Source: an uncultured Paracoccaceae bacterium (lineage in GTDB: Bacteria > Pseudomonadota > Alphaproteobacteria > Rhodobacterales > Rhodobacteraceae). From it: DNA of 64,000 nt. This document shows positions 40,033 through 58,909 of this stretch, in pieces. The translations under genes were made by a program, and so were the position numbers. Where the stretch lies: the NCBI GenBank assembly GCA_947496605.1, contig CANMDF010000002.1:434001-498000 (forward strand), written 5' to 3'. Within the stretch, counting starts at the first letter, position 1. Each line of letters begins with the position of its first letter. The notes under the pieces are model-generated. The model had not been told where the DNA came from. It made no database searches and was given only the letters and a program-made list of their open reading frames with translations.

Positions 40033-40044
40033 CCAATCTGCGAA

Positions 40045-40056
40045 TTGTGATCACAA
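40045..40056. promoter_or_regulatory. TTGTGATCACAA palindrome in front of the GntR gene
   Basis: A perfect 12-bp palindrome ending 8 bp before the GntR start codon. The core TGTGATCACA recurs in tandem in front of sucC and sdhC. The form (TTGT-N4-ACAA) fits operators of FadR/FCD-type GntR regulators; position suggests autoregulation. Confidence 0.75.
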
Positions 40057-40063
40057 ATGCTGT

Positions 40064-40714
40064 ATGTTGATCCAGCCTCGCCCCCAAGATAATACCACAG
40101 CCGCCCATGAACGGGTCTACCGCGCATTGCGCACTGAGATCATGCATGGCGAAATTGCCCCCGGCGCTGCGCTAACCCTGCGCGGTATCGGAAAGAAGTT
40201 CGACGTCTCTATGACCCCAGCACGCGAAGCGGTTCGCCGATTGGTTGCGGAAGGGGCACTGTTCTTGTCATCATCAGGCCGCGTATCAACGCCCGCCTTA
40301 TCCAATGAACGTATCGAAGAGCTGGCCACATTGCGTGCTTTGCTTGAGCCTGAGTTGGCCTCACGCGCATTGCCACGTGCACATTTTGCGTTGATTGAGC
40401 GGTTGGAGGCGATCAATCAAGGCGTCAATCAGGTAATCGCGCTTCATGATGCGACGGGCTATATTCGCCTGAACCTCGAATTTCACCGCACCCTTTACCT
40501 GCGCGCACAAGCACCCGCGATGTTGGCTATGGCAGAAACTGTCTGGCTCCAGCTTGGACCGACGATGTGCGCACTCTATGGGCGGCTCAATCGGACAGAA
40601 CCGCCAGCACATCACAAACTGATCTTATCAGCACTCAAAGCAGGCGATGACCCTGGCTTGCGCTTGGCAGTGCGGGCGGACGCAACGCAGGGTCTGCGGA
40701 TGCTTAAGGGCTAG
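40064..40714 (+). CDS. GntR-family regulator (FCD type), candidate TCA-cycle regulator
   Basis: A 216-residue GntR regulator. The winged HTH covers residues ~13-80 (HERVYRALRTEIMHGEIAPGAALTLRGIGKKFDVSMTPAREAVRRLVAEGAL); the C-terminal FCD domain has LATLRALLEPELASRAL, NLEFHRTLYLRA (metal/ligand Asn-His) and PPAHHKLILSALKAGD. FCD regulators respond to organic acids such as lactate, pyruvate, glycolate or citrate. A matching palindrome lies at its own start and at sucC and sdhC, so control of TCA operons is proposed. Its stop is 3 bp from the convergent TerB-like gene. Confidence 0.88.
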   Translation: MLIQPRPQDNTTAAHERVYRALRTEIMHGEIAPGAALTLRGIGKKFDVSMTPAREAVRRLVAEGALFLSSSGRVSTPALSNERIEELATLRALLEPELASRALPRAHFALIERLEAINQGVNQVIALHDATGYIRLNLEFHRTLYLRAQAPAMLAMAETVWLQLGPTMCALYGRLNRTEPPAHHKLILSALKAGDDPGLRLAVRADATQGLRMLKG

Positions 40715-40717
40715 CGT

Positions 40718-41557
40718 TTAAGAGGTTGGATATAAGTCGAGGTCCGACAACGCAGTATTCATGACACGACGAAAATCTTCTCCCGGCATGCCGATGCCAT
40801 GTGCGAGATTGGTCAAAAATTCATATTCCGAAGGAATGATCCGACCACTTGCAAGTGCAACAACGAAAGCCCCACGCATCATCGTGTCCTTTTCGGAATC
40901 CCTCAGACCTTTGCCAAAATCAAGAAAGTCCTGAGGGGTCAAATCCATATCGATGTGGTCTGAAATACGGACAACTTCGTTCGATTGTACCTTTTGCCGG
41001 GTCAACCGGCTGGCCGTCTTGGTGATTGTCGAAATCTCATTCGAGGCGACAATGCCATCGCATTTTCCCATATAGCACATCGCGGTCAGAATGCGTTGCG
41101 CGGCCTTTTTGCGCATCGGAGAGGTCGGATCCAACCCCATAAGCGATTTCAAGCGACGCAGAATGACGGCAACCAATGCCAGACAAATCGCAATCCAGAT
41201 ACCATAATTCTGGATATTTCGTTGCAGGCTATTTTCAGCAACGGATGGCAGGCTTGCATCAATCAGGTTCAGTGACTGGGCTGTTTCCATCTGCTGTTGG
41301 CTAAACGGCCGTTCCGCCTGTCCTGCGCATTTGTCGACCGCAAGCACGTAACCTATGATGTTGCTCGAGAGGGTATAGCCTAAGATACGAAGATCGCGTG
41401 TTTGATGACACAGAGCGAGTTCCTGCCCGCTAGGCGCTGCAATATTTGTATCAGCGACATATTCTAGGTCGTCAAACATACCGCTATCAGCGGTAAAGGC
41501 ATAGGCCGGGCTGGTGACCAGGACACTCAAGAAAAAGGCGACAATGAAACGCTTCAT
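40718..41557 (-). CDS. Exported membrane protein with TerB-like C-terminal domain
   Basis: A 279-residue protein. Signal peptide KRFIVAFFLSVLVTSPAYA, a periplasmic segment with a cysteine pair (ELALCHQTRDLRIL, AVDKCAGQ), one transmembrane helix near residues 117-135 (IWIAICLALVAVIL), then a cytoplasmic helical domain (AMCYMGKCDGIVASNEISTI ... FVVALASGRIIPSEYEFLTNLAHGIGM) resembling the TerB/DjlA-N fold (D-G-x-x-x-x-E pattern). Function unknown. Downstream of lpd in the same orientation with a 212-bp gap that shows no gene. Confidence 0.65.
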   Translation of the reverse strand: MKRFIVAFFLSVLVTSPAYAFTADSGMFDDLEYVADTNIAAPSGQELALCHQTRDLRILGYTLSSNIIGYVLAVDKCAGQAERPFSQQQMETAQSLNLIDASLPSVAENSLQRNIQNYGIWIAICLALVAVILRRLKSLMGLDPTSPMRKKAAQRILTAMCYMGKCDGIVASNEISTITKTASRLTRQKVQSNEVVRISDHIDMDLTPQDFLDFGKGLRDSEKDTMMRGAFVVALASGRIIPSEYEFLTNLAHGIGMPGEDFRRVMNTALSDLDLYPTS

Positions 41558-41769
41558 ACGGGATTCTCGGATTTACTAAGTACTATTCACACCACTGAAA
41601 ACGGAAAATTGTGGCGTCCGTATGTTAATAAGGGTGCGACAGCACGGAAATTGCAAGCGTAAGCGCGATGACTGTGCTGTTTTTGCAGCAGGTGCTTTGT
41701 GAACGCTGCAACTGCAAGCGCACCTCCATTCAAGGGAATCGCTTGCTTTCTTAGGGATGGACATGCGGT

Positions 41770-43158
41770 CTAGGCGTGAATTGCGCCATCGCCACAGGCG
41801 AGTGCGGCTTCGCGCACAGCCTCGGAATACGTCGGGTGTGCGTGGCACGTCCGTGCGAGGTCTTCCGCCGCCGCACCAAATTCCATCGCGACGCAAATCT
41901 CATGGATCAAATCACCGGCCATTGGACCGATGATATGGGCGCCGAGCACCCGGTCGGTTGCTGCATCCACAAGGATTTTGACAAAACCGTCGCCAGCGAA
42001 ATTGGCCTTGGCGCGTGCGTTGCCCATGAAGGGGAACTTGCCAACCTTATAGGCACGCCCCTGTTCTTTCAGTGTTTCTTCGGTCTCGCCCACATTGGCG
42101 ACCTCTGGATGGGTGTAGATCACGCCAGGGATCACGCCGTAGTTTACGTGCGGATGCTGGCCTGCGATGCCTTCGGCGACAGCCATGCCTTCGTCTTCGG
42201 CTTTGTGGGCCAGCATTGGGCCTGCGATCGTGTCGCCGATGGCGTAAATGCCTGCGACGTTGGTGGCGTATTTGTCGTTTGTTTTGATCTGACCGCGGTC
42301 TGACATTTCCACGCCAAGCGCATCAAGACCAAGACCATCGGTGAAGGGTTTGCGCCCTGTGGCGACCAGAACGGTGTCGGCTTGCAGCGTGTGTTCGCTG
42401 TCGTCTTTGCGCAGCTTGTAGGTGACGGTTGCCTTGCTGTTTTTGACAGACACACCCTGAACGGCGGCACCAAGGGTGAACTTAAGACCTTGTTTGGTAA
42501 GCATTTTCTGGAATTGACGCGCAATTTCCTTGTCCATGCCGGGGGTGATAGCGTCAAGGAATTCAATGACCTCAACCTCGGCCCCAAGACGGGCATAAAC
42601 GGAACCCAGTTCCAGCCCGATCACGCCTGCACCAATGACGGCAAGCTTCTTAGGCACCTTGCCCAATTCCAGCGCACCTGTAGATGTGACAACGGTTTTT
42701 TCATCCACCTCAACGCCGGGCAGCGACGATGCCTCGGACCCGGAGGCGATCACGATATGCTTTGCCTCGTGGACCTCATCGCCGACCTTGACTTTTCCGG
42801 CTTCGGGGATGGACCCCCACCCTTTGAGCCAGTCTATCTTGTTCTTTTTGAACAAAAATTCGATGCCGCCGGTGTTCTGGGCAATCGTTTCGTCCTTGTA
42901 GGTCAGCATCTGCTTCCAATCGACGGACGGGGCTTTGCCCTTTAGGCCCATGGTTGCAAAATTGTGCTCGGCTTCGTGCAGCATATGGGTTGCGTGCAGC
43001 ATCGCCTTTGATGGAATACAGCCGACGTTCAAACATGTCCCGCCCAGCGTTTCGCGGCCTTCGACGCAGGCCACCTTCATACCCAGTTGGGCACAGCGAA
43101 TAGCGCAGACATAGCCGCCGGGGCCGGCGCCGATTACGATGACATCATAGCTGGACAT
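41770..43158 (-). CDS. lpd: Dihydrolipoyl dehydrogenase (E3)
   Basis: A 462-residue FAD/NAD flavoprotein disulfide reductase. FAD motif [26 protein letters not shown], redox disulfide [13 protein letters not shown] (C43/C48), NAD-binding [26 protein letters not shown], and the C-terminal dimer-interface catalytic [11 protein letters not shown] (His-Glu pair). It regenerates lipoamide on SucB in the 2-oxoglutarate dehydrogenase complex. Located downstream of sucAB in the same orientation but separated by about 1.8 kb of inserted glycosyltransferase and MAPEG genes, so it has its own promoter region (TGTAC palindromes upstream). Confidence 0.96.
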
Positions 43159-43192
43159 GGGGTCTCCTTAAGCGAGCAATATTGCGTACATA

Positions 43193-43217
43193 TTCTGTAC
43201 AGAACCTGTACGTACAG
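43193..43217. promoter_or_regulatory. Two TGTAC palindromes upstream of lpd
   Basis: TTCTGTACAGAA (43193-43204) and CTGTACGTACAG (43206-43217), both perfect 12-bp palindromes with centres 13 bp apart, 35-59 bp upstream of the lpd start and directly after the MAPEG stop. Another GTACA occurs at about 43186. Probable operator for an unidentified regulator; distinct from the TGTGATCACA sites. Confidence 0.55.
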
Positions 43218-43221
43218 TTTG

Positions 43222-43632
43222 TTATATTACGGCTGACAGTATCATCAGCATGGTTGAGAGGAACCCCACAAACCAGATCAGTGAACGCCACGGGGCGAGG
43301 CCGAAATAATAAGCGGGGATATAAAGGATGCGGGCGGCCAGATAGACCCACGCGCAGACGGCGCTGAAACCGGTGCCTTTGTCGCCAAGAGTGATGACGA
43401 CGACGGCGATGGTGAAAAGGATCAGCGCCTCAAAATGGTTGTTCATCGCGCGGATCAGGCGGCCGGTTTTGTCGCTGACCTGTTCGACCATCGGCTTGCC
43501 CATACGGCTGGTATCGCGGGGCGACAGGGTTTTGCCGACACCGAGCTCGATGTTGGCGGGGATGGCCATCAGGGTGAACTGGACGGCTTGAAGGAGGGCA
43601 GCGAGGCAAAGGACGGTGAGTTCGGGGGTCAT
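43222..43632 (-). CDS. MAPEG-family membrane protein
   Basis: A 136-residue four-helix membrane protein of the MAPEG (eicosanoid/glutathione metabolism) family: LAALLQAVQFTLMAIPANIELG, then the conserved loop RLIRAMNNHFEALILFTIAVVV (R-x2-R-A-x2-N-x2-E pattern), and YLAARILYIPAYYFGLAPWRSLIW. Bacterial members are of unknown function. The first 66 codons are duplicated about 1.3 kb upstream. Same orientation as sucAB and lpd. Confidence 0.88.
   Translation of the reverse strand: MTPELTVLCLAALLQAVQFTLMAIPANIELGVGKTLSPRDTSRMGKPMVEQVSDKTGRLIRAMNNHFEALILFTIAVVVITLGDKGTGFSAVCAWVYLAARILYIPAYYFGLAPWRSLIWFVGFLSTMLMILSAVI
43435..43632. repeat. 198-bp direct repeat, copy A (5' part of intact MAPEG gene)
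   Basis: Gap-free match to 44733-44930, differing at only about 10-12 positions by eye. Covers MAPEG codons 1-66. Copy B is a truncated gene, so copy A is probably the parent or the surviving half of a tandem duplication. Confidence 0.9.
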
Positions 43633-43761
43633 GTGGCTATGGGCCCTAAAGATTGTAATTTCTATAAGTCGCGTTCATTCGCGTCGTCCCGGTTACATTC
43701 CGCATTTTGGCCGCGAAAACAATCGAAAGCCAGACTGGCGTAAATTGAGTTGTCTTTTGCA

Positions 43762-44706
43762 TTAGTTCTGCCGTCCGTGTTCGAGTGCATCACGCCGTGC
43801 AAAAAACCATTCGCGGCAGTGATTGTGAAGACGGTCAATCTCGGGGTCCGCCAATATGTCCTCCAATGTGCGCAGAACCGCATCCCAATGGCGCAGGATC
43901 GAACGATCGTCGGCGTCATTCAGATTATGGCTACGGTGGTGTTTTTCGCCCGGGGTGTATTTCGACGCATCCAATCCCATGCCATCTCCGCGATCTGTCT
44001 TCAGCCGCATGATGTCGGGCGTCTTGACGGCATAATGGTTGATCGCAGCGTTGTCCCAATTGCGATGCTCAATTGGGATCGCAAACCTGTTCAATCGCGG
44101 TCTGAACAACGGTGACGGGTCGATGTCAAATCCTTCGAGGGTCATCACCGTTGGGTTTTCCATGACGGGCTGTTTTGGCATATGGTCTCGCCCACTCTTG
44201 AACAGGTTGGGACGGAAGATTGTTTTGGTGAGCGAGTAACGCGGACGCGGCGCATATTGCGCTTTGGTGAAACTTTGGAGGACAAAGCCGCCATCCCACT
44301 GCGCCATTCCAGAATCGCCAAACAACCGCCAGTATAAAGGGACGGCGGACACATGCGCTGGTATAAGTTTGATGAGGTCAGCAACTTTGCCGTCGCCCGC
44401 GTGAATATTTAGAAATTCATCTGAATCGATGAATAAGAGCCAGTCAATATCGGCCATTTCAGGCGCAGCAAGTGCCACCTCAATGCCTGCGCGTTGTGGC
44501 GGGACATCTTCCGGGACGACATTGTGGATGTGGCGCACCAACCCGCGGTCCGCCATGCAATCCAACAACACATCAGACCCATCACGGCACCCGTTTGTCG
44601 CCACCCAGATTTCATCAAACCCAATAGCTTTGTGATAGGCGATCCATTCCAGCAGAAAGATTCCTTCGTCTTTCATACAAGACAGAACAGCGGTGCGGCT
44701 TGTCAT
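43762..44706 (-). CDS. Glycosyltransferase family 2/92-like protein
   Basis: A 314-residue protein. The N-terminus AVLSCMKDEGIFLLEWIAYHKAIGFDEIWVATNGCRDGSD is the GT2/GT92-like (DUF23-type) nucleotide-sugar domain, with the metal-binding DIDWLLFIDSDEFLNI (D-x-D). The C-terminus has HRNWDNAAINHYAVKTPDIM, an NHYxxKS-like motif found in these proteins. The true start is the ATG overlapping the stop of a truncated MAPEG copy (ATGA); a longer in-frame extension runs through the MAPEG copy in the wrong frame and is rejected. It probably decorates surface glycans; acceptor unknown. Confidence 0.82.
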   Translation of the reverse strand: MTSRTAVLSCMKDEGIFLLEWIAYHKAIGFDEIWVATNGCRDGSDVLLDCMADRGLVRHIHNVVPEDVPPQRAGIEVALAAPEMADIDWLLFIDSDEFLNIHAGDGKVADLIKLIPAHVSAVPLYWRLFGDSGMAQWDGGFVLQSFTKAQYAPRPRYSLTKTIFRPNLFKSGRDHMPKQPVMENPTVMTLEGFDIDPSPLFRPRLNRFAIPIEHRNWDNAAINHYAVKTPDIMRLKTDRGDGMGLDASKYTPGEKHHRSHNLNDADDRSILRHWDAVLRTLEDILADPEIDRLHNHCREWFFARRDALEHGRQN

Positions 44707-44930
44707 CGCAGAGGATAAACCTTTGGCATAAGATGGTTGTTCATCGCGCGGATCAGGCGGGCCGTTTTGTCGCTGACCTGTTCGACCATCGGCTTGCCCA
44801 TGCGGCTGGTGTCGCGGGGGGACAGCGTTTTGCCGACACCGAGCTCGATGTTGGCGGGGATGGCCATCAGGGTGAACTGGGCGGCTTGGAGGAGGGCAGC
44901 GAGGGCGAGGACGGTGAGTTCGGGGGTCAT
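44703..44930 (-). pseudogene. Truncated MAPEG copy
   Basis: Codons 1-66 match the intact MAPEG gene at 43632 almost exactly (TLSPRDTSRMGKPMVEQVSD conserved), then the frame ends after nine unrelated codons (LMPKVYPLR). Three of four helices are lost. Its TGA overlaps the glycosyltransferase ATG, so the fragment now acts, at most, as a translated leader coupled to that gene. Confidence 0.85.
44733..44930. repeat. 198-bp direct repeat, copy B
   Basis: Second copy of the MAPEG 5' segment (see 43435-43632). Together the two copies flank the glycosyltransferase gene, so the 1.3-kb unit between repeat ends is bounded by direct repeats and could be lost or amplified by recombination. Confidence 0.9.
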
Positions 44931-44956
44931 TGTGAATTGTCCAGAATCTGAATTTG

Positions 44957-45301
44957 TTAGCTAGGTGATCGTTGCACAATTTCAGACATTGGCAACGTTG
45001 GTTGCTTAAAGCACTCTGTTGCCAGCCAGCCCATCGCATATGCAAACCGATCCTCTCTTTCGGAAAACTTCGAATCTCCAATTGCGGTAACATAGCTGTG
45101 CCACAACTTCACCTTTTCGAACTCAGTCGTGTTTGAGTTCGAAAAGTTGTCTTGAAGCACCATGAGATCCAAACATGGGTCCTTTCCGAACATGTTTATC
45201 TGCATGACTGTCAATTCACTCAGAGTCATCTCAGCGATAGACATGGAACCAATGCAGATGCCAATCGCGCAAATCACCATTCTATGCTTTCGGTTTTTCA
45301 C
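44957..45301 (-). CDS. Small hypothetical protein downstream of sucB
   Basis: A 114-residue protein, GTG start preceded by GGAG with 6-nt spacing, 10 bp after the sucB stop. N-terminus has a short hydrophobic stretch (MVICAIGICIGSMSIAE) that may be a signal peptide; the mature part contains FAYAMGWLATECFKQPTLPM and two cysteines. Unlike the surrounding TCA genes it is AT-richer, and the function is unknown. Probably co-transcribed with sucAB. Confidence 0.55.
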   Translation of the reverse strand: MKNRKHRMVICAIGICIGSMSIAEMTLSELTVMQINMFGKDPCLDLMVLQDNFSNSNTTEFEKVKLWHSYVTAIGDSKFSEREDRFAYAMGWLATECFKQPTLPMSEIVQRSPS

Positions 45302-45311
45302 CGAATGCTCC

Positions 45312-46499
45312 TTACAAATCCATCAACAACCGCCGTGGGTCCTCAAGCGCTTCTTTCACCCGCACAAGGAACGTCACCGCCCCTTTGCCGTCGACGATCC
45401 GGTGGTCGTAGGACAGGGCCAGATACATCATCGGACGGATCACGACTTCTCCGTTGATTGCCATCGGTCGGTCTTGGATTTTATGCATGCCGAGGATGCC
45501 CGACTGTGGCGGGTTCAGGATGGGGGACGACATGAGCGAGCCGTAGACCCCGCCGTTCGAAATCGTGAAGGTGCCGCCTTGCATTTCGGCCATGCTCAGC
45601 TTGCCGTCGCGGGCTTTGGCACCCATCGTGGCGATGCTTTTCTCGATTGTCGCAAACGACATCTGGTCGGCGTCGTTGATGACTGGCACCACAAGGCCCG
45701 TTGGCGTCCCCGCCGCGATCCCCATGTTGACGTAGTTTTTGTAGACTACATCGGTGCCGTCTATTTCGGCGTTTACCTCTGGCACCTCATTGAGGGCGTG
45801 CACGCAGGCCTTGGTGAAGAAGGACATGAAGCCCAGTTTGACGCCATGCTTTTTCAGGAACAGGTCTTTGTATTCGTTGCGCAGGGCCATCACCTCGGTC
45901 ATGTCGACCTCGTTGTAGGTGGTCAGCATGGCGGCGGTGTTTTGGCTGTCTTTCAGGCGCTTGGCGATGGTCTGGCGCAGGCGGGTCATCTTGACCCGCT
46001 CTTCGCGCTCTGCCTGATCTGCGGCGACCGGTGCGCGCGGTGCAGCGGCTGGTGCAGGTGCGGGTGAGGCGAGGGCGTTCAATACGTCCTCTTTCATCAC
46101 GCGACCGTCTTTGCCGGTGCCTGCAACGTCAGAGAGGTTGTTTTCTGCCATCAGTTTTTTGGCAGATGGGGCGTCTTCGACGTCCTTTGCAGCGGCTGCT
46201 GGGGCAGGGGCTGCCTCCGCTTTGGGTTTTTCTTTCTTGGCCGCAGGGGCCGGCGCTGCATCGCCTTCGGCGATTTGAGCCAGCAACGCGTCAACACCAA
46301 CGGTTTCGCCTTCGGCGGCGACGATTTCGGACAGGGTGCCTGCGATCGGGCTTGGCACTTCGACCGTCACCTTATCTGTTTCCAGCTCGCAGAGCATTTC
46401 ATCAACGGCAACGGCATCGCCGGGTTGTTTGAACCATGTGGCGACAGTGGCCTCTGTCACGGATTCGCCAAGGGTTGGGACGCGGACTTCGGTGCTCAT
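45312..46499 (-). CDS. sucB: Dihydrolipoyllysine succinyltransferase, E2 of 2-oxoglutarate dehydrogenase
   Basis: A 395-residue E2. Single N-terminal lipoyl domain ([24 protein letters not shown]; lipoylated K43 in [10 protein letters not shown]), an Ala/Pro-rich linker, the E3/E1-binding domain ([32 protein letters not shown]), and a C-terminal acyltransferase domain ending [32 protein letters not shown] with the catalytic DHR-x3-G motif. Start: the ATG overlapping the sucA stop by one base (TAATG). An in-frame extension upstream lies inside sucA and is rejected. Confidence 0.97.
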
Positions 46500-49456
46500 T
46501 ACTTTGTTCCTTTGATGGTCAGCGCATCGTCGACGAGGGCTGCTTGTTCTGCTTTGTGTTTGCTGGCCAGACCTGTTGCAGGTGAGGCGGCGGCGGCGCG
46601 TCCGGCATAGACGGGCCGCGTGTGTTTGGCTTTGATCCGGGTGAGGACCCATTCGATATTGGGCTCCATAAATGACCACGCACCTTGGTTGCGCGGCTCT
46701 TCCTGACACCAGACCATTTCAGCGTTTTTGAACCGTTCGAGTTCTTTGACCGCTGATTGCGCGGGGAACGGATAGAACTGTTCGTAACGCATAATGTAGA
46801 CATCCTTGATGCCCCGCGCATCGCGTTCTTCCAGCAGATCGTAGTAAACCTTGCCTGAACACATGACGACGCGTTTGATCTTGTCATCAGCCGCCAGTTT
46901 GGTGTCCGAGTTGCCTTGTTGTGCATCGTCCCAAAGGACGCGGTGGAAGGACGATCCAACGGTGAATTCTTCGCGTTTGGACACCGCCATTTTATGCCGC
47001 AACAGCGACTTTGGCGTCATCAGGATCAGCGGTTTCCGGAAAGTCCGGTGCAGCTGACGCCGCAGCAGGTGGAAGTAGTTCGCCGGTGTCGTGCAGTTGG
47101 CCACGATCCAGTTGTCGCCGCCGCACATGGTCAAGAACCGTTCCAGACGTGCGCTTGAGTGTTCAGGTCCTTGCCCTTCATACCCATGCGGTAGCAGGCA
47201 AACGAGGCCGGACATACGCAGCCATTTGCTCTCGCCTGAGCTGATGAACTGGTCAAACATGATCTGTGCACCATTGGCGAAGTCGCCGAACTGCGCTTCC
47301 CACAAGGTCAGCGCGTTGGGTTCGGCCAGTGAATAGCCATACTCGAAACCCAGCACCGCGTATTCTGACAACATCGAGTCGATGACTTCGTAGTTTGCTT
47401 GGCCTTCGCGAATGTTGTTCAGCGGGTAATACCGGTCTTCGTTGTCCTGATTGATCAGGCCGGAATGGCGGTGGCTGAATGTGCCGCGTGTACAATCTTG
47501 GCCGGACAAGCGCACAGGGTAGCCTTCTGTCAGCAGTGACCCGAATGCGAGCGCTTCACCAGTGGCCCAGTCGATGTTTTCACCGGTCTCGAACATCTTG
47601 GCTTTGTTTTCGATCAGACGGCCAATGGTTTTATGCAACGGAAAGTTTTCGGGCGCTTTCGATAGCGCCTCGCCCACCGCGTTGAATGTCGCGTCCTCAA
47701 TCGCTGTCACGCCACGTTGATAGTCTTCGTCTTTACGGTCGAGGTGAGACCACTTGCCATCCAGCCAGTCGGCTTTGTTGGGCTTAAAGTTGCGGCCTGC
47801 CTCAAATTCTTCATTCAAGTGCGCCTGGAACGCGGCCTTCATGTCCTCGATCTCGCCTTCGGGGATCAGACCGTCGCGCACCAGCCGTTCGGTGTAAAGC
47901 GTCAGTGTGGTCTTTTGCTTTTTGATCTTTTTGTACATCACCGGGTTGGTGAACATCGGCTCGTCGCCCTCATTATGTCCAAAGCGGCGGTAGCAGATAA
48001 TGTCGAGGACCACGTCCTTGTGGAATTTCTGACGGAATTCGGTTGCGACACGGGCGGCGTGTACGACAGCCTCTGGATCGTCGCCGTTCACGTGGAAGAT
48101 CGGGGCCTCAACCATCAGTGCGATGTCTGTGGGGTAGGGGCTGGAGCGGCTAAAGTGCGGGGCCGTGGTGAAACCGATCTGGTTGTTCACCACGATATGC
48201 ATGGTGCCACCGGTTTTGTGCCCTTTCAGGCCAGAGAGACCCAGACCTTCGGCCACAACGCCTTGGCCCGCAAAGGCCGCATCACCGTGCAGCAGGACGC
48301 CCATGACGCGGGTGCGGTCTTCGTCTTTCTTTTGGTCTTGTTTCGCGCGGACCTTGCCGATGACGACGGGGTTTACCGCCTCAAGGTGGCTGGGATTCGC
48401 TGTCAGCGACAGGTGCACAGTGTTGTCATCAAAGCTGCGATCACTGGACGCGCCGAGGTGGTATTTCACGTCACCTGAACCATCCACGTCTTCGGGTTTG
48501 AATGACCCGCCTTGGAATTCGTTAAAGATCGCGCGGTAGGGTTTTTCCATCACGTTCGCCAACACGGACAAACGGCCACGGTGGGGCATGCCGATGATGA
48601 TTTCATCAATGCCCAGCTGACCACCGCGTTTGATGATCTGCTCCATCGCGGGGATCAGGCTTTCGCCGCCATCAAGGCCGAAACGCTTGGTGCCCATGTA
48701 TTTGACGTGCAGGAATTTCTCGAAACCTTCAGCCTCAACAAGGCTATTCAGGATCGCCTTACGCCCGTTCTTAGTGAACGCGATTTCCTTGCCGTAGCCC
48801 TCAATCCTTTCCTTCAGCCAACCCGCCTCTTCGGGGTTGGAAATATGCATGTATTGCAGCGCAAAAGTGCCACAATAGGTGCGCTGCACGATCGCCATAA
48901 TCTCGGTCATCGTCGCGACTTCGAGGCCGAGAACATTGTCGATAAAGATCGGGCGATCCATGTCCGCGGCAGTAAAGCCGTAGTTCGCAGGGTCCAGTTC
49001 AGGGTGCGGTTTTTGATCGCGCATGCCCAGCGGATCAAGGTCGGCAATCAGATGGCCACGGATACGGTAGGCGCGGATGATCATCAGCGCGCGGATACTA
49101 TCGAGGACAGCAGCGCGGACCTGCGCCTCATCCAATGCGACACCCTTTTCCGCGGCTTTTTCTTTGATCTTCTTGCCCGCCGCTTCAGGTTCGGCGGGCC
49201 ACTGGCCATCAAGGGCGGCGGTCAGATCATCCGTTGGGGCAGGGGGCCAATCAGTACGCGCCCAGCTTGGGCCCGTGGCCTCTGCCTTGGCATCCGCAGG
49301 GGCATCGCCCAAGGACCGGAAGAACGCTTGCCACGACTCATCCACCGCACCGGGGTTATCGGCGTAGCGGGCGTAGAGTTGTTCCACATACTCCGCGTTA
49401 TGTCCTTGCAGGAAGGAGGAGGCGTGGAAGACGTCGTTGGGGGAATGATCGTTCAT
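46499..49456 (-). CDS. sucA: 2-oxoglutarate dehydrogenase E1 component
   Basis: A 985-residue thiamine-diphosphate enzyme that decarboxylates 2-oxoglutarate and succinylates SucB. N-terminal [28 protein letters not shown] is the E2-binding head; [17 protein letters not shown] is a substrate-site motif, with TPP-binding [13 protein letters not shown] and [19 protein letters not shown]-type loop appears as [16 protein letters not shown]. The C-terminal transketolase part shows [17 protein letters not shown] and [15 protein letters not shown]. Tightly coupled to sucB; 111 bp after sucD with palindromic repeats between. Confidence 0.98.
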
Positions 49457-49523
49457 GAGGGGACCTCAATGCGTTTGCCGATGATTAAGTCCCGGGCCAC
49501 GCCCGAGACGCCTTTTCGTGAGA

Positions 49524-49567
49524 CGGGGATTTTCCCCGCCTTTGTTTGTGTCGGGGAGAACCCCGAC
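49524..49567. repeat. REP-like palindromes between sucD and sucA
   Basis: Two hairpins: CGGGGATTTTCCCCG (49524-49538) and GTCGGGGAGAACCCCGAC (49550-49567), the second touching the sucD stop codon. The second shares the CGGGGTTCTCCCCG core with the larger inverted repeat between sucC and sucD, indicating a dispersed short palindromic element. Confidence 0.75.
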
Positions 49568-50449
49568 CTACCCAATCGCTTCCAGCACAGCCTCGCCCAG
49601 TGTCGCGGGGCTGTCTGCCACCACGATACCCGCGGACTTCATCGCTTCGATCTTGCTTTCCGCGTCGCCTTTGCCGCCTGCGACAATCGCACCGGCGTGG
49701 CCCATGCGGCGGCCGGGAGGGGCGGTGCGTCCGGCGATGAAACCGGCTGTTGGTTTCCAACGGCCCTTTTTCTTTTGGGCGGTTAGGAATTCGGCGGCTT
49801 CTTCCTCGGCGGACCCGCCGATTTCGCCAATCATGATCATGGAATGCGTTTCGTCGTCATCAAGGAACATATCCAGCACGTCGATATGTTCGGTTCCTTT
49901 GATGGGGTCGCCGCCGATACCCACGGCTGTGGACTGGCCCAGGCCGCTGTCGGAGGTCTGCTTGACCGCTTCATAGGTCAGCGTGCCGGAACGGGACACA
50001 ACGCCGACCGAGCCGCGCTTGTGGATGTGGCCGGGCATGATGCCGATCTTGCAGGCATCCGGCGTGATGATGCCGGGGCAGTTGGGGCCGATGAGGCGAG
50101 AGGCTGAACCTTCCAGCGCCTTTTTCACACGCATCATGTCGAGGACAGGGATGCCTTCGGTGATGCAGATGATCAGCTCCATTTCGGCGTCGATGGCTTC
50201 AAGGATACTGTCCGCAGCGAAGGGGGGCGGCACGTAGATGACAGAGGCGTTGGCCTCGGTCACGTGTTTCGCCTCATGCACCGAGTTGAAGATCGGCAGG
50301 TCGAGGTGGGTTTGCCCGCCTTTGCCGGGGGTCACGCCGCCGACCATTTTGGTGCCGTAAGCAATCGCTTGCTCAGAGTGGAATGTGCCCTGCGAGCCGG
50401 TGAGGCCTTGGCAGATAACGCGGGTGTTTTCGTTTACGAGAATGGCCAT
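49568..50449 (-). CDS. sucD: Succinyl-CoA synthetase alpha subunit
   Basis: A 293-residue ADP/GDP-forming succinate-CoA ligase alpha chain. CoA-binding N-terminus ([42 protein letters not shown]), mid-protein [10 protein letters not shown], and the phosphorylated active-site histidine in [20 protein letters not shown]. Works with SucC to make succinate plus ATP from succinyl-CoA. 83 bp downstream of sucC with an inverted repeat between. Confidence 0.98.
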
Positions 50450-50474
50450 GGGGGCCTCCTTGGAAATTCTTGGT

Positions 50475-50530
50475 GTAGGGCGGGGTTCTCCCCGCCGATG
50501 AGATGCACGGCGGGGAGAACCCCGCCCTAC
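50475..50530. repeat. 23-bp perfect inverted repeat between sucC and sucD
   Basis: Left arm 50475-50497, right arm 50508-50530, perfect complement over 23 bases with a 10-base loop. Each arm is itself palindromic (GGCGGGGTTCTCCCCGCC). The cruciform fills the whole intercistronic space, starting 25 nt upstream of sucD and ending 2 nt from the sucC stop. REP/BIME-like; may modulate mRNA stability between sucC and sucD. Confidence 0.85.
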
Positions 50531-50532
50531 GT

Positions 50533-51726
50533 TTATCCTTTGACCGCCTTCACGATCTTCTCCGCACCATCTTTCAAATCATCCGCTGCGATAACGTCAA
50601 CGTCGGACTCATTAATGATGCGCTTGCCTTCTTCGACGTTCGTGCCTTCAAGCCGTACGACAAGGGGCACTTGCAGACCGACTTCTTTCACCGCGGAGAC
50701 AACGCCCTCGGCGATCACGTCGCAGCGCATGATGCCGCCGAAGATGTTCACAAGGATGCCTTTGACCTGCGGGTCAGAGGTGATGATCTTGAACGCCTCG
50801 GTCACTTTCTCTTTCGTCGCACCGCCGCCTACGTCAAGGAAGTTGGCAGGTTCGGCACCGTAGAGTTTGATGATGTCCATCGTCGCCATGGCAAGGCCCG
50901 CGCCGTTGACCATGCAGCCGATCTCACCGTCGAGCGCGATATAGTTCAGGTCGAACTTGGAGGCCGCGAGTTCTTTGGGGTCTTCTTCGGTTTCATCCCG
51001 CAATGCTGCCACATCGGCGTGGCGGTAGACCGCGTTGCCGTCAAAGGCGACCTTGGCGTCGAGCACTTTCAGATCGCCACTGTCTGTGACGATCAGCGGG
51101 TTAATTTCCAGCATCTCCATGTCTTTTTCGACGAAGGCTTGGTACAGTTGGCCCATCAGTTTCACGCATTGCTTGACCTGATTACCGGTCAGCCCCAGCG
51201 CGAAGGCGACGCGGCGTCCGTGGAATGGTTGGTACCCTGTGGCCGGATCAACGGTGAAGTTGAGGATTTTCTCTGGCGTGTTGGCAGCCACTTCTTCGAT
51301 GTCCATGCCGCCCTCAGTAGAACAGACGAAACCAATGCGGCTGGTCTGGCGGTCAACGAGAAGGGCGAGGTACATTTCTGTCTCAATGCCAGAACCGTCT
51401 TCGATGTAGATGCGGTTGACGACTTTGCCGGCTGGGCCTGTCTGATGTGTGACCAATGTGCGGCCCAGCATCTTTTTGGCTTCAGTCGCGGCTTCTTCGA
51501 CCGATTTGGCCAAACGCACACCGCCTGCTTCGCCCGCGTCGGCTTCTTTGAATTTGCCTTTGCCGCGGCCACCTGCATGGATCTGTGCTTTGACGACCCA
51601 AAGGGGGCCGTCCATTTCGCCAGCGGCTGTTTTGGCATCTTCGGCGCGGGTCACAGGGCGACCGTCCGAGACGGGCGCGCCATAGCTGCGCAACAAAGCT
51701 TTGGCCTGATATTCGTGAATGTTCAT
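50533..51726 (-). CDS. sucC: Succinyl-CoA synthetase beta subunit
   Basis: A 397-residue ATP-grasp subunit. N-terminus [18 protein letters not shown], nucleotide-binding [40 protein letters not shown] (Mg ligands), and the C-terminal [17 protein letters not shown]. First gene of the suc operon; tandem TGTGATCACA palindromes lie about 100 bp upstream of the start. Confidence 0.98.
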
Positions 51727-51823
51727 AGGGACAATTCCAATGTGGCTACGGTTGCCAGCAGCTAAACATGGAAAAATCAGGGGTTATAAGCGAAAAATGT
51801 CAAATCAGTGGAAATTCGCACAT

Positions 51824-51855
51824 TTGTGATCACAGAAATTTTTGGTGTGATCACA
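51824..51855. promoter_or_regulatory. Tandem TGTGATCACA operators upstream of sucC
   Basis: Two perfect TGTGATCACA palindromes at 51825-51834 and 51846-51855, centres exactly 21 bp apart (two helical turns, same DNA face). They lie 99-129 bp upstream of sucC and 75-105 bp upstream of the divergent glycosyltransferase. Matches the site in front of the GntR gene and the pair in front of sdhC. Confidence 0.8.
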
Positions 51856-51929
51856 AATATGCCCGCACCTTGATTTTGATCAACTTTATTCAGTTTTTAA
51901 AGATTCGTTCTAATGATAGCAAAGTCCCC

Positions 51930-52931
51930 ATGATGCAGAACAGACCAACATGGGCCGTTGTGGCCACGGTTGATGAACCGCCCGCGCTGGTGCTGGCGTT
52001 TGTTGCTTGGCATTTAGCGATGGGTGCGTCGCGCGTGTTTATCTATTGTGATCGTCCTGACGATCCGGTGCAGACCCTGCTTGCCGCTGTGCCGCAGGTC
52101 AAGGTTGTTGCTTGTGATCAGGCCCATTGGCTGCGGGTGGGCAAAAGTAGGCCGCGCCGCCATGAGGTGCGTCAGGTTCGCAATGCGCATGATGCGTATG
52201 TGCAGACGGATGCGGACTGGATTTTGCATAGCGATGCGGATGAGTTTGTATGGGCTAAGGACCGTGTTGATACGGTGCTATCGACTGCATCAGATGCGGT
52301 TGATTGCCTTGTCATCCCTGTGGCTGAACGCAATCATCAATCGGATGAGGATGGTGTTAGCATTTTTGAGGGTGCGTTTCGCCGTCCTTTCCGAGAGCCA
52401 GCGCATCGCGGGCGTAAGGTTTTCGGGGCAGACTTTGATCTGACGTATCGCGGTTTGACAGGGCATGCCCAAGGCAAGGCGTTTGTGCGCACAGGTCGCG
52501 CCATGCGTCTGTCGATCCACCGGCCGCGCCCGCCAGTCCCGGATCAAGACTTGCGCTTGGAGCGTGCGCCTGTTGACGATTTGGAATTACTGCATTTTGA
52601 AGGGCTAACGCCGCGGTATTGGGTCTACAAGCTGACGCGCATGATGCAGGCGCTGCATGAACGTGACGGTATGCCTTTGTCAGATCATCGCAGTAAGCAG
52701 GCCAATCTTTTGCCAGACGCACCTGATCTTTACCGCCGGTTGAAGCAGCCAGATGCGGATGTTGTAGGCGTTCTGACAAGGTTGGGCCTTTGGCACACAC
52801 CATCGTTTGATCCGTTGCCTGCCGTCGCGGAGTATTTTCCGGAAGTTACTTGCGACCTTAGTCCGGCTGCGATTGATCATTGGCTGGAACGCAACAAGCC
52901 AGATGTGCTGGCCTACCGCCGTAAATCGTAA
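51930..52931 (+). CDS. Glycosyltransferase family 2-like protein between mdh and sucC
   Basis: A 333-residue protein of the same GT2/GT92-like group as the gene at 43762: TWAVVATVDEPPALVLAFVAWHLAMGASRVFIYCDRPDD, metal-site DADWILHSDADEFVW (D-x-D), HRPRPPVP near the C-terminal third and a basic end. The start is one of two adjacent ATGs (51930/51933), neither with a good ribosome site; a longer in-frame start would run through the operator region. Opposite in orientation to the flanking TCA genes and closed by a bidirectional terminator shared with mdh. Confidence 0.82.
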   Translation: MMQNRPTWAVVATVDEPPALVLAFVAWHLAMGASRVFIYCDRPDDPVQTLLAAVPQVKVVACDQAHWLRVGKSRPRRHEVRQVRNAHDAYVQTDADWILHSDADEFVWAKDRVDTVLSTASDAVDCLVIPVAERNHQSDEDGVSIFEGAFRRPFREPAHRGRKVFGADFDLTYRGLTGHAQGKAFVRTGRAMRLSIHRPRPPVPDQDLRLERAPVDDLELLHFEGLTPRYWVYKLTRMMQALHERDGMPLSDHRSKQANLLPDAPDLYRRLKQPDADVVGVLTRLGLWHTPSFDPLPAVAEYFPEVTCDLSPAAIDHWLERNKPDVLAYRRKS

Positions 52932-52942
52932 AGCGGACATGA

Positions 52943-52971
52943 AAAAGGGCCGCCCAATGGGCAGCCCTTTT
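52943..52971. terminator. Bidirectional terminator between glycosyltransferase and mdh
   Basis: AAAAGGGC ... GCCCTTTT with an inner CCC/GGG stem. A-rich on the left and T-rich on the right gives T-tails on both strands, so it can end both converging transcripts. Confidence 0.85.
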
Positions 52972-52993
52972 CGCATTCGGATGATGTCGCTTT

Positions 52994-54870
<1,877 letters not shown>

Positions 54871-54884
54871 GCCGGACCTGCCAT

Positions 54885-55199
54885 TCAGCTTTGGCTGTCG
54901 AAATTTGCCAAAGGTTCATTGAGGTATTGATAGGCTTGGCCTGCCGCAACCATACATGTGGGGCCGCCGGGGCGCGTGACAGTGATGGTCCAAGACCCTG
55001 TGTCCATGGAGGCAAACACCTCAACCACCGAGTTATCGCTGCCCAGCCCAATGGATTGTCTGCTTTCGCCATAGCGTTCGCCTAAGCGTTCCACGACTTG
55101 CGCGTGATCGGCGCAATTGCCGGTTTGGGCGCTGGCCGGGTAGGCGGCAAGCAGTGCGGCACCGATGCCAAAGGACATCAGAAAGAAAGTGCGTCTCAT
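54885..55199 (-). CDS. Small secreted protein, function unknown
   Basis: A 104-residue protein. Signal peptide RRTFFLMSFGIGAALLAAYPASA, then QTGNCADHAQVVERLGERYGESRQSIGLGSDNSVVEVFASMDTGSWTITVTRPGGPTCMVAAGQAYQYL with two cysteines probably forming a disulfide. This pattern (NCADHxxVxxxLxxxYGExRxxxGL) is widespread as small exported proteins in Rhodobacterales, role unknown. GGGGAA precedes the ATG. Converges with the TSUP gene (14 bp gap). Confidence 0.75.
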   Translation of the reverse strand: MRRTFFLMSFGIGAALLAAYPASAQTGNCADHAQVVERLGERYGESRQSIGLGSDNSVVEVFASMDTGSWTITVTRPGGPTCMVAAGQAYQYLNEPLANFDSQS

Positions 55200-55395
55200 T
55201 TTTGTTCCCCTTTTACGAAAGGCCACTGCCGGATCGGCACGTCTGACCAAGTGGATCAAATTCTGCGTTCAACTTGCGCGAAAATGGTTAACACACCGTA
55301 ACGATGGGTCCTGTCGCTGCGTTGCGGCAATTTTGCCTTGAATGATCTGTCTAAATCTGGCGTTGTTCGCGCAACAATATTGCGAGGAAGATTCG

Positions 55396-56238
55396 ATGCA
55401 TGACCGCCCTTACCGCTCTGCACTTTATATACCTGGGTCCAAGGACCGGGCCTTGGATAAGGCGCGGGGGTTGCCTGTCGATGTGATCTTGTTTGATTTG
55501 GAAGATGCCGTTTCCCCCGATGCCAAGGTCGCGGCGCGGGATACGCTTTATGCCGCATTGGCTGATGATGGCTACGGCGCGCGCTTAAAGATCGTGCGCA
55601 TCAATGGGCTGGATACCGAATGGGGTGCGGCGGATGCAGCTGCCGTGGCTGCTATGAATTGCGATGCTGTGTTGTTGCCTAAGGTGAATGGCCCTGACGA
55701 TGTCGATGCGCTGGCCGCTTTGGTGCCCGATCTGCCGATCTGGGCGATGATGGAGACGCCGCAGGGCATTTTGAATGCGGCGAGTATTGCTGCGCACCCC
55801 CGTATTGCGGGGTTTGTGTTGGGCACAAATGATCTGGCAAAAGATCTGAATTCGCGGACCCGTGCAGCGCTAATGACGTCATTGCAGATGTGTATGCTGG
55901 CTGCCAAGGCTGCGGGGATTGTCGCGCTCGATGGTGTTTACAATGCCTTTAAGGACGAAGACGGTCTCCGTGTCGAATGTGAAGAGGGCCGCGATATGGG
56001 CTTTGATGGCAAGACCTTGATCCATCCTGCGCAGGTGGCCATCGCGAACGCCGCCTTTGGTCCGACAACGGATGAGATTGATCTGGCCCGCCGCCAGATT
56101 GCGGCGTTTGAGGCCGCTGAGGCCGAAGGGCAGGGCGTCGCCGTCGTGGATGGCCGCATTGTTGAAAACTTGCATATCGTGACCGCGCGGGCGACCTTGG
56201 CCAAAGCTGACGCCATCGCCGCATTGGAGACCACATGA
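55396..56238 (+). CDS. mcl2: CitE/HpcH-family CoA lyase or thioesterase, probable (3S)-malyl-CoA thioesterase Mcl2
   Basis: A 280-residue TIM-barrel protein of the citrate lyase beta family. RSALYIPGSKDRALDKARGLPVDVILFDLEDAVSPDAK holds the Mg/acyl-CoA binding start (DLEDAV); VRINGLDTEW, MMETPQGILNAASIA (catalytic Glu) and GKTLIHPAQVAIAN follow. In the ethylmalonyl-CoA pathway Mcl2 hydrolyses malyl-CoA; Mcl1 (about 318 residues, different N-terminus) is the lyase. Length and the neighbouring mesaconyl-CoA hydratase gene favour Mcl2. GAGGAAG precedes the ATG. Confidence 0.82.
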   Translation: MHDRPYRSALYIPGSKDRALDKARGLPVDVILFDLEDAVSPDAKVAARDTLYAALADDGYGARLKIVRINGLDTEWGAADAAAVAAMNCDAVLLPKVNGPDDVDALAALVPDLPIWAMMETPQGILNAASIAAHPRIAGFVLGTNDLAKDLNSRTRAALMTSLQMCMLAAKAAGIVALDGVYNAFKDEDGLRVECEEGRDMGFDGKTLIHPAQVAIANAAFGPTTDEIDLARRQIAAFEAAEAEGQGVAVVDGRIVENLHIVTARATLAKADAIAALETT

Positions 56239-56789
56239 CACTATTGATCGCAGGCGTTGCCCTTTGGTGGGCCGCGCATTTGTTCAAACGGCTTGCACCG
56301 GGTGTGCGGCAATCGCTGGGGGCCAAAGGGTATCCGGTGATGGCGGTCGCTATTCTGGCCAGTGTGGTGCTGATGGTTCTTGGCTATCGCGCCGCTGATG
56401 GTGCGGTTTACTGGGGGCGCGAACCGATGTTGGTGGGCATCAATAACCTGCTGATGGTTGTCGCCTTCTATTTCTATGCAGCAAGCGCCGCCAAGGACGT
56501 CAAAATCTGGTTGGGCACCAAAGTCCGCCACCCGCAGCTGACGGGCTTTTCCATTTGGGCTGCGGCGCATTTGCTGGTGAATGGCGACACACCTTCGTTC
56601 ATCCTGTTTGGCGGATTACTGGCTTGGGCGATTGTCGAAATCCTGCTGATCAATGCGCAAGAGGGGCCTTGGGAAAGGCCAGAGCGTGCGCCTGTGAAAA
56701 AAGAAATCGTCGCCGTTGTCGTGACCTGTGTGATGGTCAGCGTTGTGATGGCCATCCACTTTGCTTTGGGCGTGACACCTTGGGGGTAA
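56235..56789 (+). CDS. NnrU-family membrane protein
   Basis: A 184-residue protein with about five membrane helices (LLIAGVALWWAAHLFKRLAPG, GYPVMAVAILASVVLMVLGY, GINNLLMVVAFYFY, HPQLTGFSIWAAAHLLVNGD). The histidine-containing W-A-A-H and LTGFSxWAxAHLLVNG motifs are NnrU/MddA-like. First described near nitrite/nitric oxide reduction genes, but often found elsewhere; its function is not established. Start overlaps the mcl2-like stop (ATGA). Confidence 0.85.
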   Translation: MTLLIAGVALWWAAHLFKRLAPGVRQSLGAKGYPVMAVAILASVVLMVLGYRAADGAVYWGREPMLVGINNLLMVVAFYFYAASAAKDVKIWLGTKVRHPQLTGFSIWAAAHLLVNGDTPSFILFGGLLAWAIVEILLINAQEGPWERPERAPVKKEIVAVVVTCVMVSVVMAIHFALGVTPWG

Positions 56790-56793
56790 GCAC

Positions 56794-56997
56794 ATGAAAA
56801 TATATCGTTTGTTGACCGAAGATGACACGTCGGCCTTCTGCCACAAGGTGTCTGAGGCGATGGCCAAAGGATGGGAGCTTTATGGCGATCCGACCTACGC
56901 CTTTGACCACGCCAATGGCGTGATGCGCTGCGGCCAAGCGGTAACGAAAGACATCGATACCCCCTATTCCCCAGATATGAAGTTGGGACAGCAATGA
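56794..56997 (+). CDS. DUF1737 small protein
   Basis: A 67-residue protein starting KIYRLLTEDDTSAFCHKVSEAMAKGWELYGDPTYAFD, the DUF1737 pattern (aromatic-rich, two-layer sandwich). Lies 4 bp after the NnrU stop and overlaps the mch start by 4 bases, so it is part of one operon. Function unknown. Confidence 0.8.
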   Translation: MKIYRLLTEDDTSAFCHKVSEAMAKGWELYGDPTYAFDHANGVMRCGQAVTKDIDTPYSPDMKLGQQ

Positions 56998-58019
56998 CCA
57001 AGACGAACGCAGGCCGCTTTTTTGAAGATTACGCCGTTGGCGATGTGATCACCCACGCGGTGCCACGCACGATTTCAGGGGGCGAGCGGGCGCTGTATCA
57101 CGCGCTTTATCCTGCACGCGGGGCCCTTTATTCGTCGGATGAATTTGCGCGGACCTGCGGTTTGTCCGCCTCGCCTGTTGATGACCTGGTCACCTTTCAT
57201 ACGGTCTTTGGCAAAACCGTTCCGGATGTGTCGCTGAATGCTGTGGCCAACCTAGGGTATGCCGAAGGGCGCTGGCTGCAGCCTGTCTATCCAGGCGACA
57301 CGCTGCTTTCGCAGTCTGAAGTGATCGGGGTCAAGCAGAACTCAAACGGGAAATCCGGTGTTGTATGGGTCCGCACAACAGGGCGCAATCAGCGCGATGA
57401 GGTTGTGTTGAGCTATGTGCGCTGGGTCATGGTGCGCAAGCGCGGCGATGGTGCTGCGCCAGATACGGTGATCCCGGAGTTGTCGGCTGCGGTTGCTGCG
57501 TCTGATATTAGTGTCCCAGATGGGCTGACGTTTGCAGGGTATGACTTTGCCCAAGCAGGTGAACCGCACCGCTTGGCTGATTATGCCGTGGGCGAGATTA
57601 TCGATCACGTTGATGGGGTCACCATTGAAGAGGCCGAGCATATGCTGGCCACCCGCCTGTGGCAGAACACCGCCAAAGTGCATTTTGATGCGACCAATAG
57701 GCCAGATGGCAAGCGGTTGATCTACGGTGGTCATGTGATTTCACTGGTGCGGGCGCTTTCGTTTAATGGGCTGGCCAACGCGCAGATGATTGTGGCCCTG
57801 AACGGCGGCGCGCATGCGAACCCTTGTTTTGCGGGTGATACTGTACGGGCGTGGTCTGAGGTGTTGGACATAGCTGAAACTGATGCGCCGGGTGTGGGTG
57901 CTATCCGACTGCGGCTGGTTGCGACGAAAGGCGAGGCGGGCGTTTTACGTGGGGAGGATGGCAAGTATCACCCCGACGTATTGCTTGACCTGGACTACTG
58001 GGCGTTGATGCCGCTTTAA
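56994..58019 (+). CDS. mch: Mesaconyl-CoA hydratase (beta-methylmalyl-CoA dehydratase)
   Basis: A 341-residue double hot-dog MaoC-family hydratase of the ethylmalonyl-CoA pathway (mesaconyl-CoA to beta-methylmalyl-CoA). NAGRFFEDYAVGDVITHAVPRTISGGERALYHALYPARGALYSSDEFAR is characteristic of Mch rather than generic MaoC proteins; the second hot-dog repeat runs from DYAVGEIIDHVDGVTIEEAEHM. Last gene of the mcl2-NnrU-DUF1737-mch operon, all linked by 4-base overlaps or a 4-bp gap. Confidence 0.92.
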   Translation: MTKTNAGRFFEDYAVGDVITHAVPRTISGGERALYHALYPARGALYSSDEFARTCGLSASPVDDLVTFHTVFGKTVPDVSLNAVANLGYAEGRWLQPVYPGDTLLSQSEVIGVKQNSNGKSGVVWVRTTGRNQRDEVVLSYVRWVMVRKRGDGAAPDTVIPELSAAVAASDISVPDGLTFAGYDFAQAGEPHRLADYAVGEIIDHVDGVTIEEAEHMLATRLWQNTAKVHFDATNRPDGKRLIYGGHVISLVRALSFNGLANAQMIVALNGGAHANPCFAGDTVRAWSEVLDIAETDAPGVGAIRLRLVATKGEAGVLRGEDGKYHPDVLLDLDYWALMPL

Positions 58020-58068
58020 CATCTGAGTTGTGATTTGTGTTAGCCCGCCCGCCCGTTAGGGTGTTTTT

Positions 58069-58734
58069 ATGCGAGCGATCTTTTGTGCCAGCTTTCTGAC
58101 TTTCGCTACTCCTGTGCAGGCTTGCGAGGTGGCATTGATGCTGGCGGTCGATGTGTCCGGGTCTGTTGATCCGGCTGAGTACCGCATTCAGATGGATGGT
58201 TTGGCCGCGGGATTGCTGGACAGCGCTGTTTCCGGGGCATTGGTGGGCGGTCAATCCAAACTTGCGCTGATGCAGTGGACTGGGACCAACCGCCAAGAGG
58301 TTGTCATCGGTTGGACTACGATGCGCGATGACGCGGATGTTTTGGCCTTCGCCGAAAAGGTCACCTCGACCCCGCGTGTTTGGCGGAACTTTTCAACCGC
58401 GATTGGTGAAGCTTTGCAGTTGTCGCTGCCATACTTCGCACAGGTGCCAGAATGTGAGCGGCATGTTATCGACATCTCGGGTGATGGGCCAAGCAATGAG
58501 GGCAGGCTACCAAATTTAGTCTGGCCTCAGCTTGCGGCGGCGGGTGTCACGGTGAATGCTTTGGTGATCGAGGCCAGCTTGCCGGGACTAACGCGCTATT
58601 TTGAGAGCGACGTCATTACCGGCCCGGGGGCGTTTGCTGCGACCGCTGATACATTTGAAGACTATCCTAGGGAAATTACCCGCAAGCTGCTGAGGGAGTT
58701 GACCAAGTCGGTTGCTTTGCTCGACCCGCGGTAG
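58069..58734 (+). CDS. DUF1194 secreted von Willebrand A domain protein
   Basis: A 221-residue exported protein with signal peptide RAIFCASFLTFATPVQA then CEVALMLAVDVSGSVDPAEYRIQMDGLAAGL. The MIDAS metal site DVSGSV (D-x-S-x-S) and the IDISGDGPSNEG loop identify a VWA fold of the DUF1194 type. Two further cysteines. Function unknown; the stop is 5 bp before the first TGTGATCACA site of the sdh promoter region. Confidence 0.88.
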   Translation: MRAIFCASFLTFATPVQACEVALMLAVDVSGSVDPAEYRIQMDGLAAGLLDSAVSGALVGGQSKLALMQWTGTNRQEVVIGWTTMRDDADVLAFAEKVTSTPRVWRNFSTAIGEALQLSLPYFAQVPECERHVIDISGDGPSNEGRLPNLVWPQLAAAGVTVNALVIEASLPGLTRYFESDVITGPGAFAATADTFEDYPREITRKLLRELTKSVALLDPR

Positions 58735-58738
58735 TTTT

Positions 58739-58769
58739 TGTGATCACAGTTTTTCGAAGTGTGATCACA
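58739..58769. promoter_or_regulatory. Tandem TGTGATCACA operators upstream of sdhC
   Basis: Two perfect palindromes at 58739-58748 and 58760-58769, centres 21 bp apart, the same spacing as in front of sucC. They begin 5 bp after the DUF1194 stop and lie about 140-170 bp upstream of sdhC. Confidence 0.82.
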
Positions 58770-58909
58770 AGAGTGAGAAACCATCGTCCTCGCGACCTTT
58801 TTTCGCGGTTTGGTGGGCTTGCTGTGCGTGACTCTCGCGAATTAATGGTGCAAAAAGAACCTCAAGGCGTCGTCTTGCCGGACGACACATGCCAACGAAG
58901 GGAACATCT

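Follow-up and report, generated by a model that had tools for sequence, protein, structure and literature searches.

Five copies of one perfect palindrome, TGTGATCACA, lie in a 64,000-nucleotide stretch of DNA from an uncultured Paracoccaceae bacterium (contig CANMDF010000002.1, positions 434,001 to 498,000; hereafter the window), and they raise the question of which protein reads them and with what effect. One copy precedes gntR, the gene of a GntR-family regulator with an FCD domain, and the other four form two tandem pairs, one ahead of sucC and one ahead of sdhC (Table 1). By its sequence, gntR is the ortholog of RSP_0981/AkgR of Rhodobacter (Cereibacter) sphaeroides, so that regulator and regulon are already published, a precedent that the original prediction for this locus had missed. 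The core finding is the published AkgR regulon and so not new, and the interpretation given at that time was right in outline. What we add to the published core is the regular tandem geometry of the sites and a self-site at gntR that depends on the lineage; our literature search returned no earlier mention of either the 21-bp pairs or the self-site, and as the primary AkgR paper lay outside that search we make no claim that they are unpublished.

Palindromic sites in the window, the genome and the family

All five palindromes were recovered where they had been predicted, as exact matches, with an expectation of 0.03 copies from 100 shuffles of the window and five copies in none of these shuffles. 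The centre-to-centre distance is exactly 21 bp in both pairs, as had been claimed, and the fifth copy does stand just ahead of the FCD-type GntR gene, at a gap of eight bases instead of the nine originally given. The complete genome sequence (3.47 Mb) contains seven copies; the two beyond the window both lie within long coding frames, which we identified by eye as dxs (L002) and leucyl aminopeptidase (L003). The 12-bp form TTGTGATCACAA has a single genome copy, at gntR.

When one imperfect flank is allowed (TGTGATCAC), the genome yields 28 forward and 25 reverse matches at 46 places, part of a wider set of 126 GTGATCAC cores; these places were assigned to genes with a crude codon-based gene caller. 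Besides the five window sites, seven places fall outside called genes (L284, L285, L312, L318, L326, L332 and L333). Four of the seven have a gene within 400 bp downstream, none of which was recognised as belonging to the tricarboxylic acid (TCA) cycle, and for the remaining three the caller gave none. These seven places are taken as background because each is a single site with one imperfect flank. Upstream of mdh in the window there is no site at up to one mismatch, and for icd, fumC and acnA no recognised TCA neighbour appeared among the one-flank sites outside called genes, these three not having been searched for by name or with weaker sites.

To cover the family we used 149 genomes, each representing one listed genus and the window's own genome among them, and defined a pair as GTGATCAC-N2..32-GTGATCAC, with 2 to 32 bases between the cores; GTGATCAC is the core of TGTGATCACA. 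A pair is present in 133 of the 149 genera, and a control with the reversed pattern gave zero in all 149. The location and spacing of pairs were examined in 111 fetched loci (L039-L068, L073 and L075-L154). These contain 47 pairs, 28 upstream of sucC, 16 upstream of sdhC and three near neither, and 41 of the 47 show the 21-bp spacing; as 30 of the 47 rows stem from loci picked via the pair itself and some pairs overlap in longer arrays, the count informs about location and spacing and not about frequency. When these loci are taken together with the window, the exact core precedes sdhC in 18 of 18 promoters and sucC 

Some arrays exceed two sites. Four cores stand in a row before sucC in L104 (20188-20263, spacings 21, 21 and 26), and three in L122 (20165-20219) and L099 (19903-19952; coordinates of these two approximate). 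Four to six pairs, where two is the usual number, occur in G135, G042, G044, G069 and G125, a count in which extra targets and chance are not separated.

The AkgR ortholog and its co-occurrence with the sites

The gntR product carries the Pfam domains FCD (62.2 bits) and GntR (50 bits), both exceeding the cut-off. Its best match in genome G051 is encoded near sdhB and beside a YgjP gene. G051 would itself be R. sphaeroides, an assignment made because a piece of PDB 4l9y, presumably the R. sphaeroides malyl-CoA lyase, is matched there with 100% identity over 169 amino acids, because the G051 regulator and its Cereibacter ovatus counterpart share 95% identity (R. sphaeroides is not among the 80 named loci returned), and because its gene order runs like the RSP numbers. 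This order, lpd-sucB-sucA-sucD-sucC, pair, mdh ... mch, pair, sdhC-sdhD-sdhA-sdhB, gntR, YgjP, fits the published locus numbers RSP_0962-0965, 0966-0967, 0968, 0974-0976 and 0981.

The names AkgR and RSP_0981 come from separate sources, and we take them to denote one protein. RSP_0981 is a GntR protein predicted to regulate succinyl-CoA synthetase (sucCD), alpha-ketoglutarate dehydrogenase (sucAB-lpd) and succinate dehydrogenase (sdh), according to PMC4344238, and the sites of AkgR include GTGATCAC, according to PMC6365646. Because these predicted targets and this motif were already published, the suc/sdh circuit is a known system: the window shares both of them, and G051 has the same suc and sdh blocks, with GTGATCAC pairs at 21-bp spacing ahead of both sucC and sdhC. 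The two genomes differ in the position of gntR (close to lpd in the window, close to sdhB in G051), in the self-site, which is present at the window gntR and absent from that of G051, and in a glycosyltransferase-like gene that separates mdh from the sucC pair in the window, whereas in G051 mdh follows directly after the pair.

Orthologs of the regulator, defined by at least 62% identity in a protein search, were found in 131 of the genomes and not in 18. Pairs are present in 129 of the 131 genomes with an ortholog versus four of the 18 without (Fisher p 2.1e-14, relatedness not corrected). For a comparison at sdhC, SdhA was sought in 30 chosen genomes and found in 27 (at the set limit not in G019, G122 and G147). 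Among the 16 ortholog-lacking genomes with sdhA, 13 have no site upstream of sdhC, two have one (G096 and G114) and one offers no upstream DNA (G021); of the 13, G029 shows a lone core lower down, at position -600 relative to sdhA, and in G033 sucC is preceded by a pair (L052). All 11 ortholog-bearing genomes compared alongside, which were picked by us, carry one or more exact cores upstream of sdhC. On the SdhA tree (28 rows, the 27 plus the window) the lack is scattered, with nine changes, at least three of them forced by supported branches and many forks being weak. Because presence is so wide, repeated joint loss of regulator and sites is the simplest reading, and such joint loss provides the main evidence that it is precisely an AkgR-type protein that reads the sites. 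The earlier proposal that a GntR protein is dedicated to controlling the suc and sdh operons gains support from this cross-genus co-occurrence, which has few exceptions, and from the literature on the R. sphaeroides ortholog.

Promoter geometry, the self-site and the direction of control

In 15 of 18 sdhC promoters a putative -35 box, GTGAC, lies 65-67 bp downstream of where the proximal core starts (a motif chosen after looking), and at sucC the best conserved downstream position is a T at +55, found in 20 of 23 promoters (the set of 26 without L122, L130 and one duplicate). If the -35 boxes are correct, the proximal centres would be located near -97 at sdhC and near -87 at sucC, with the distal centres 21 bp further. 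Between sdhC and sucC the site distance would then change by roughly one turn of the helix, which would suit activation by two dimers on one face. We propose a mechanism in which the FCD-GntR protein would bind TGTGATCACA, with its core GTGATCAC, as a dimer; two dimers would sit side by side, 21 bp apart and on the same helix face, ahead of sucCDAB-lpd and sdhCDAB, and would activate transcription from a near-constant distance ahead of the promoter, sucAB-lpd presumably being transcribed from the sucC promoter. It is from these tandem dimers upstream of suc and sdh that we infer activation.

The signal is most likely a TCA-cycle carboxylate sensed by the FCD domain via a metal-like site comprising N137, H141, H184 and D206. 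These four residues are identical in 129 of 129 aligned orthologs (L281 from G033 was omitted as too diverged) and form a metal-site-like pattern. In other FCD proteins, residues of such kind and spacing hold a ligand-assisting metal, for example Asn144, His148, His192 and His214 in Ps5454 (PMC4746285 and PMC7674646), and the spacing would point to a corresponding role here.

The sign of control, which the original prediction had left open, might also be the opposite, with the GntR protein repressing suc and sdh until a TCA metabolite relieves the repression. FCD GntR proteins are mostly repressors, and the geometry of the self-site suggests repression at gntR. The suc and sdh sites, however, lie far upstream at nearly fixed distances, as would be typical of an activator. 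Moreover, AkgR is called a transcriptional activator in PMC6365646, and we consider repression of suc and sdh improbable.

The self-site was assessed in 130 gntR loci: the homolog of G033 and 129 orthologs, G027 and G091 having dropped out of the 131 because a contig end truncates their genes. An exact GTGATCAC core is present upstream of gntR in 88 of these loci, a near match in three and none in 39, and in 73 of the 88 the motif TTGAC stands exactly 18 bp before the core. Because the core follows TTGAC by 18 bp, over the expected -10 region, the palindrome would overlap both the last bases of the spacer and some of the -10, which suggests self-repression: a single dimer bound there would probably repress gntR and so render the supply of the activator self-limiting. 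On the gntR protein tree the self-site is clustered, with 22 changes versus 36 in shuffles (bootstrap not settled), and it occurs in none of the members of an 11-row group that includes G051 (support 91/77 only). A second set of 110 gntR upstream regions, in which R. sphaeroides relatives are over-represented and from which L140 was dropped for its short upstream region, comprised 39 with the site, one near match and 70 without. Judged from these upstream regions, the self-site, a likely site of self-control, is common in the family and apparently lacking in the model species R. sphaeroides and its lineage, that of G051.

That the AkgR (RSP_0981-type) regulon explains the locus as a whole, from the sites and their binding to activation at suc and sdh and self-repression, is in our judgement highly probable. 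For the more specific view of a two-sided switch, which in most of the family would activate suc and sdh from dimers locked at 21 bp and shut its own promoter via the -10, with a feedback that differs from the R. sphaeroides lineage without self-site, the chances appear evenly balanced.

A number of points weigh against the AkgR explanation. The promoter boxes were read from sequence, and activation draws on a statement in a second paper (PMC6365646); while sites, geometry, conservation, orthology and the co-occurrence of protein and sites were observed in this analysis, binding in this organism, the sign at each promoter, self-repression and the ligand are predicted. The co-occurrence of ortholog and pair is confounded by shared ancestry, and it has exceptions in both directions. 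Three genomes, G019, G096 and G114, retain pairs without a detected gntR ortholog; because their assemblies are 91, 77 and 100% complete in 210, 50 and 320 contigs, respectively, a missing gene and a missing stretch are indistinguishable in them. G033, which also lacks the ortholog and has kept a pair, possesses a diverged homolog (48%) with a self-site of its own (L281). Conversely, G040, with one exact core before sdhC, and G147, which is 73% complete, have the ortholog and no exact pair. At gntR, YgjP was mapped in 66 of the cases with 18-bp spacing; in 33 of these the TTGAC shares bases with the YgjP stop codon and in the other 33 it does not, so that the stop does not by itself explain the spacing. 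Of the 42 loci that have no exact self-site, 28 likewise contain a TTGAC.

Other candidate regulators, related systems and neighbouring genes

The sites could be bound by a different GntR paralog, from a group of about 40% identity whose members are present in many genomes of the family, and a Pseudomonas GntR protein 32% identical to AkgR has been proposed to use GTGATCAC (PMC6365646). Such a paralog is nevertheless very improbable as the reader of the sites: G054 has a 40%-identical paralog but neither a pair nor an sdhC site, and it is the ortholog gene itself that bears the site in the 88 loci described above. Less probable still is a protein of the CRP/FNR family, whose half-sites, in the case of CRP, are TGTGA and TCACA. 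In all five copies, as the original prediction had observed, these half-sites abut, without the six-base spacer of CRP sites (TGTGA-N6-TCACA), and the pairs track the presence of the AkgR-type GntR gene. In addition, R. sphaeroides is not predicted to have CRP analogues according to PMC4344238, yet G051 has pairs. Least probable is a regulator of central carbon metabolism such as CceR, a LacI-family protein of the RSP_1663 type. The predicted targets of RSP_1663 in R. sphaeroides likewise include sdh and mdh, but its published predicted motif, [A/G/T]GTT N6-8 AAC (both from PMC4344238), is on inspection not contained in TGTGATCACA. Both the CRP-type and the CceR-type reading were rejected on motif grounds.

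Some known systems of other bacteria come close to the AkgR-type regulator of the window. CitO of Enterococcus faecalis is an FCD GntR protein whose sites likewise lie upstream of the promoters that it activates, and it senses citrate via a metal site, but it governs citrate use and not suc or sdh, and its modelled metal set, Asn147-His191-His213, differs in the last position, which when matched by spacing is Asp206 here (CitO data from PMC4746285). For the GntR-like PS417_07240 of Pseudomonas simiae, a GTGATCAC palindrome precedes both the regulator gene and its cluster, but the protein is 32% identical to AkgR and was proposed to regulate a deoxyribonate oxidation cluster (PMC6365646). By sequence, the closest solved relative of the window regulator is McbR (PDB 4p9f, E 2.4e-18), which in contrast is a biofilm repressor of E. 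coli with another regulon (PMC4746285).

The comparison extends a known activator circuit of the TCA cycle to most sampled genera of the family. Its very regular site geometry would make it a clean system for studying how an FCD GntR protein activates. Since many members of the family have the self-site and the model lineage has none, studies of R. sphaeroides by themselves may not reveal how feedback acts on the regulator. Should the effector prove to be a TCA acid, flux from 2-oxoglutarate to fumarate would be tied to its own intermediates through this circuit.

Table 1. Sites and genes of the suc/sdh circuit in the window (positions count from the first letter of the window).
Feature	Position	Strand	Basis or remark
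YgjP-like metallopeptidase gene, conserved gntR neighbour	39337..40032	+	Pfam; detected in 119/130 gntR loci
TTGACC, putative gntR -35 box	40029..40034	+	18 bp before GTGATCAC core; overlaps YgjP stop codon here
TGTGATCACA self-site	40046..40055	.	8 bases separate site from gntR ATG at 40064
gntR, FCD-type GntR regulator, RSP_0981/AkgR ortholog	40064..40714	+	Pfam; 76% identity to GntR near sdhB in G051
lpd, end of suc cluster	41770..43158	-	NCBIfam; other genes intervene between sucB and lpd
sucB (start approximate)	45312..46484	-	translation named by eye; synteny
sucA	46499..49456	-	NCBIfam
sucD	49568..50449	-	translation named by eye; tblastn synteny with G051
sucC	50533..51726	-	NCBIfam
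glycosyltransferase-like gene, between sucC pair and mdh	51768..52931	+	named by eye
sucC pair, proximal site	51825..51834	.	exact TGTGATCACA match
sucC pair, distal site	51846..51855	.	exact TGTGATCACA match
sdhC pair, distal site	58739..58748	.	exact TGTGATCACA match
sdhC pair, proximal site	58760..58769	.	exact TGTGATCACA match
sdhC (start 58889 or 58910), directly ahead of sdhD and sdhA	58889..59293	+	translation; tblastn synteny
sdhD	59306..59677	+	translation; tblastn synteny
sdhA	59699..61504	+	NCBIfam
sdhB	62154..62933	+	translation; tblastn synteny

Outside the features of Table 1, a site with one mismatch, TGTGATCATA, is located at 38042-38051 of the window, about 75 bp upstream of a ThuA-domain gene on the minus strand; 2.5 matches with up to one mismatch are expected in the window by chance.

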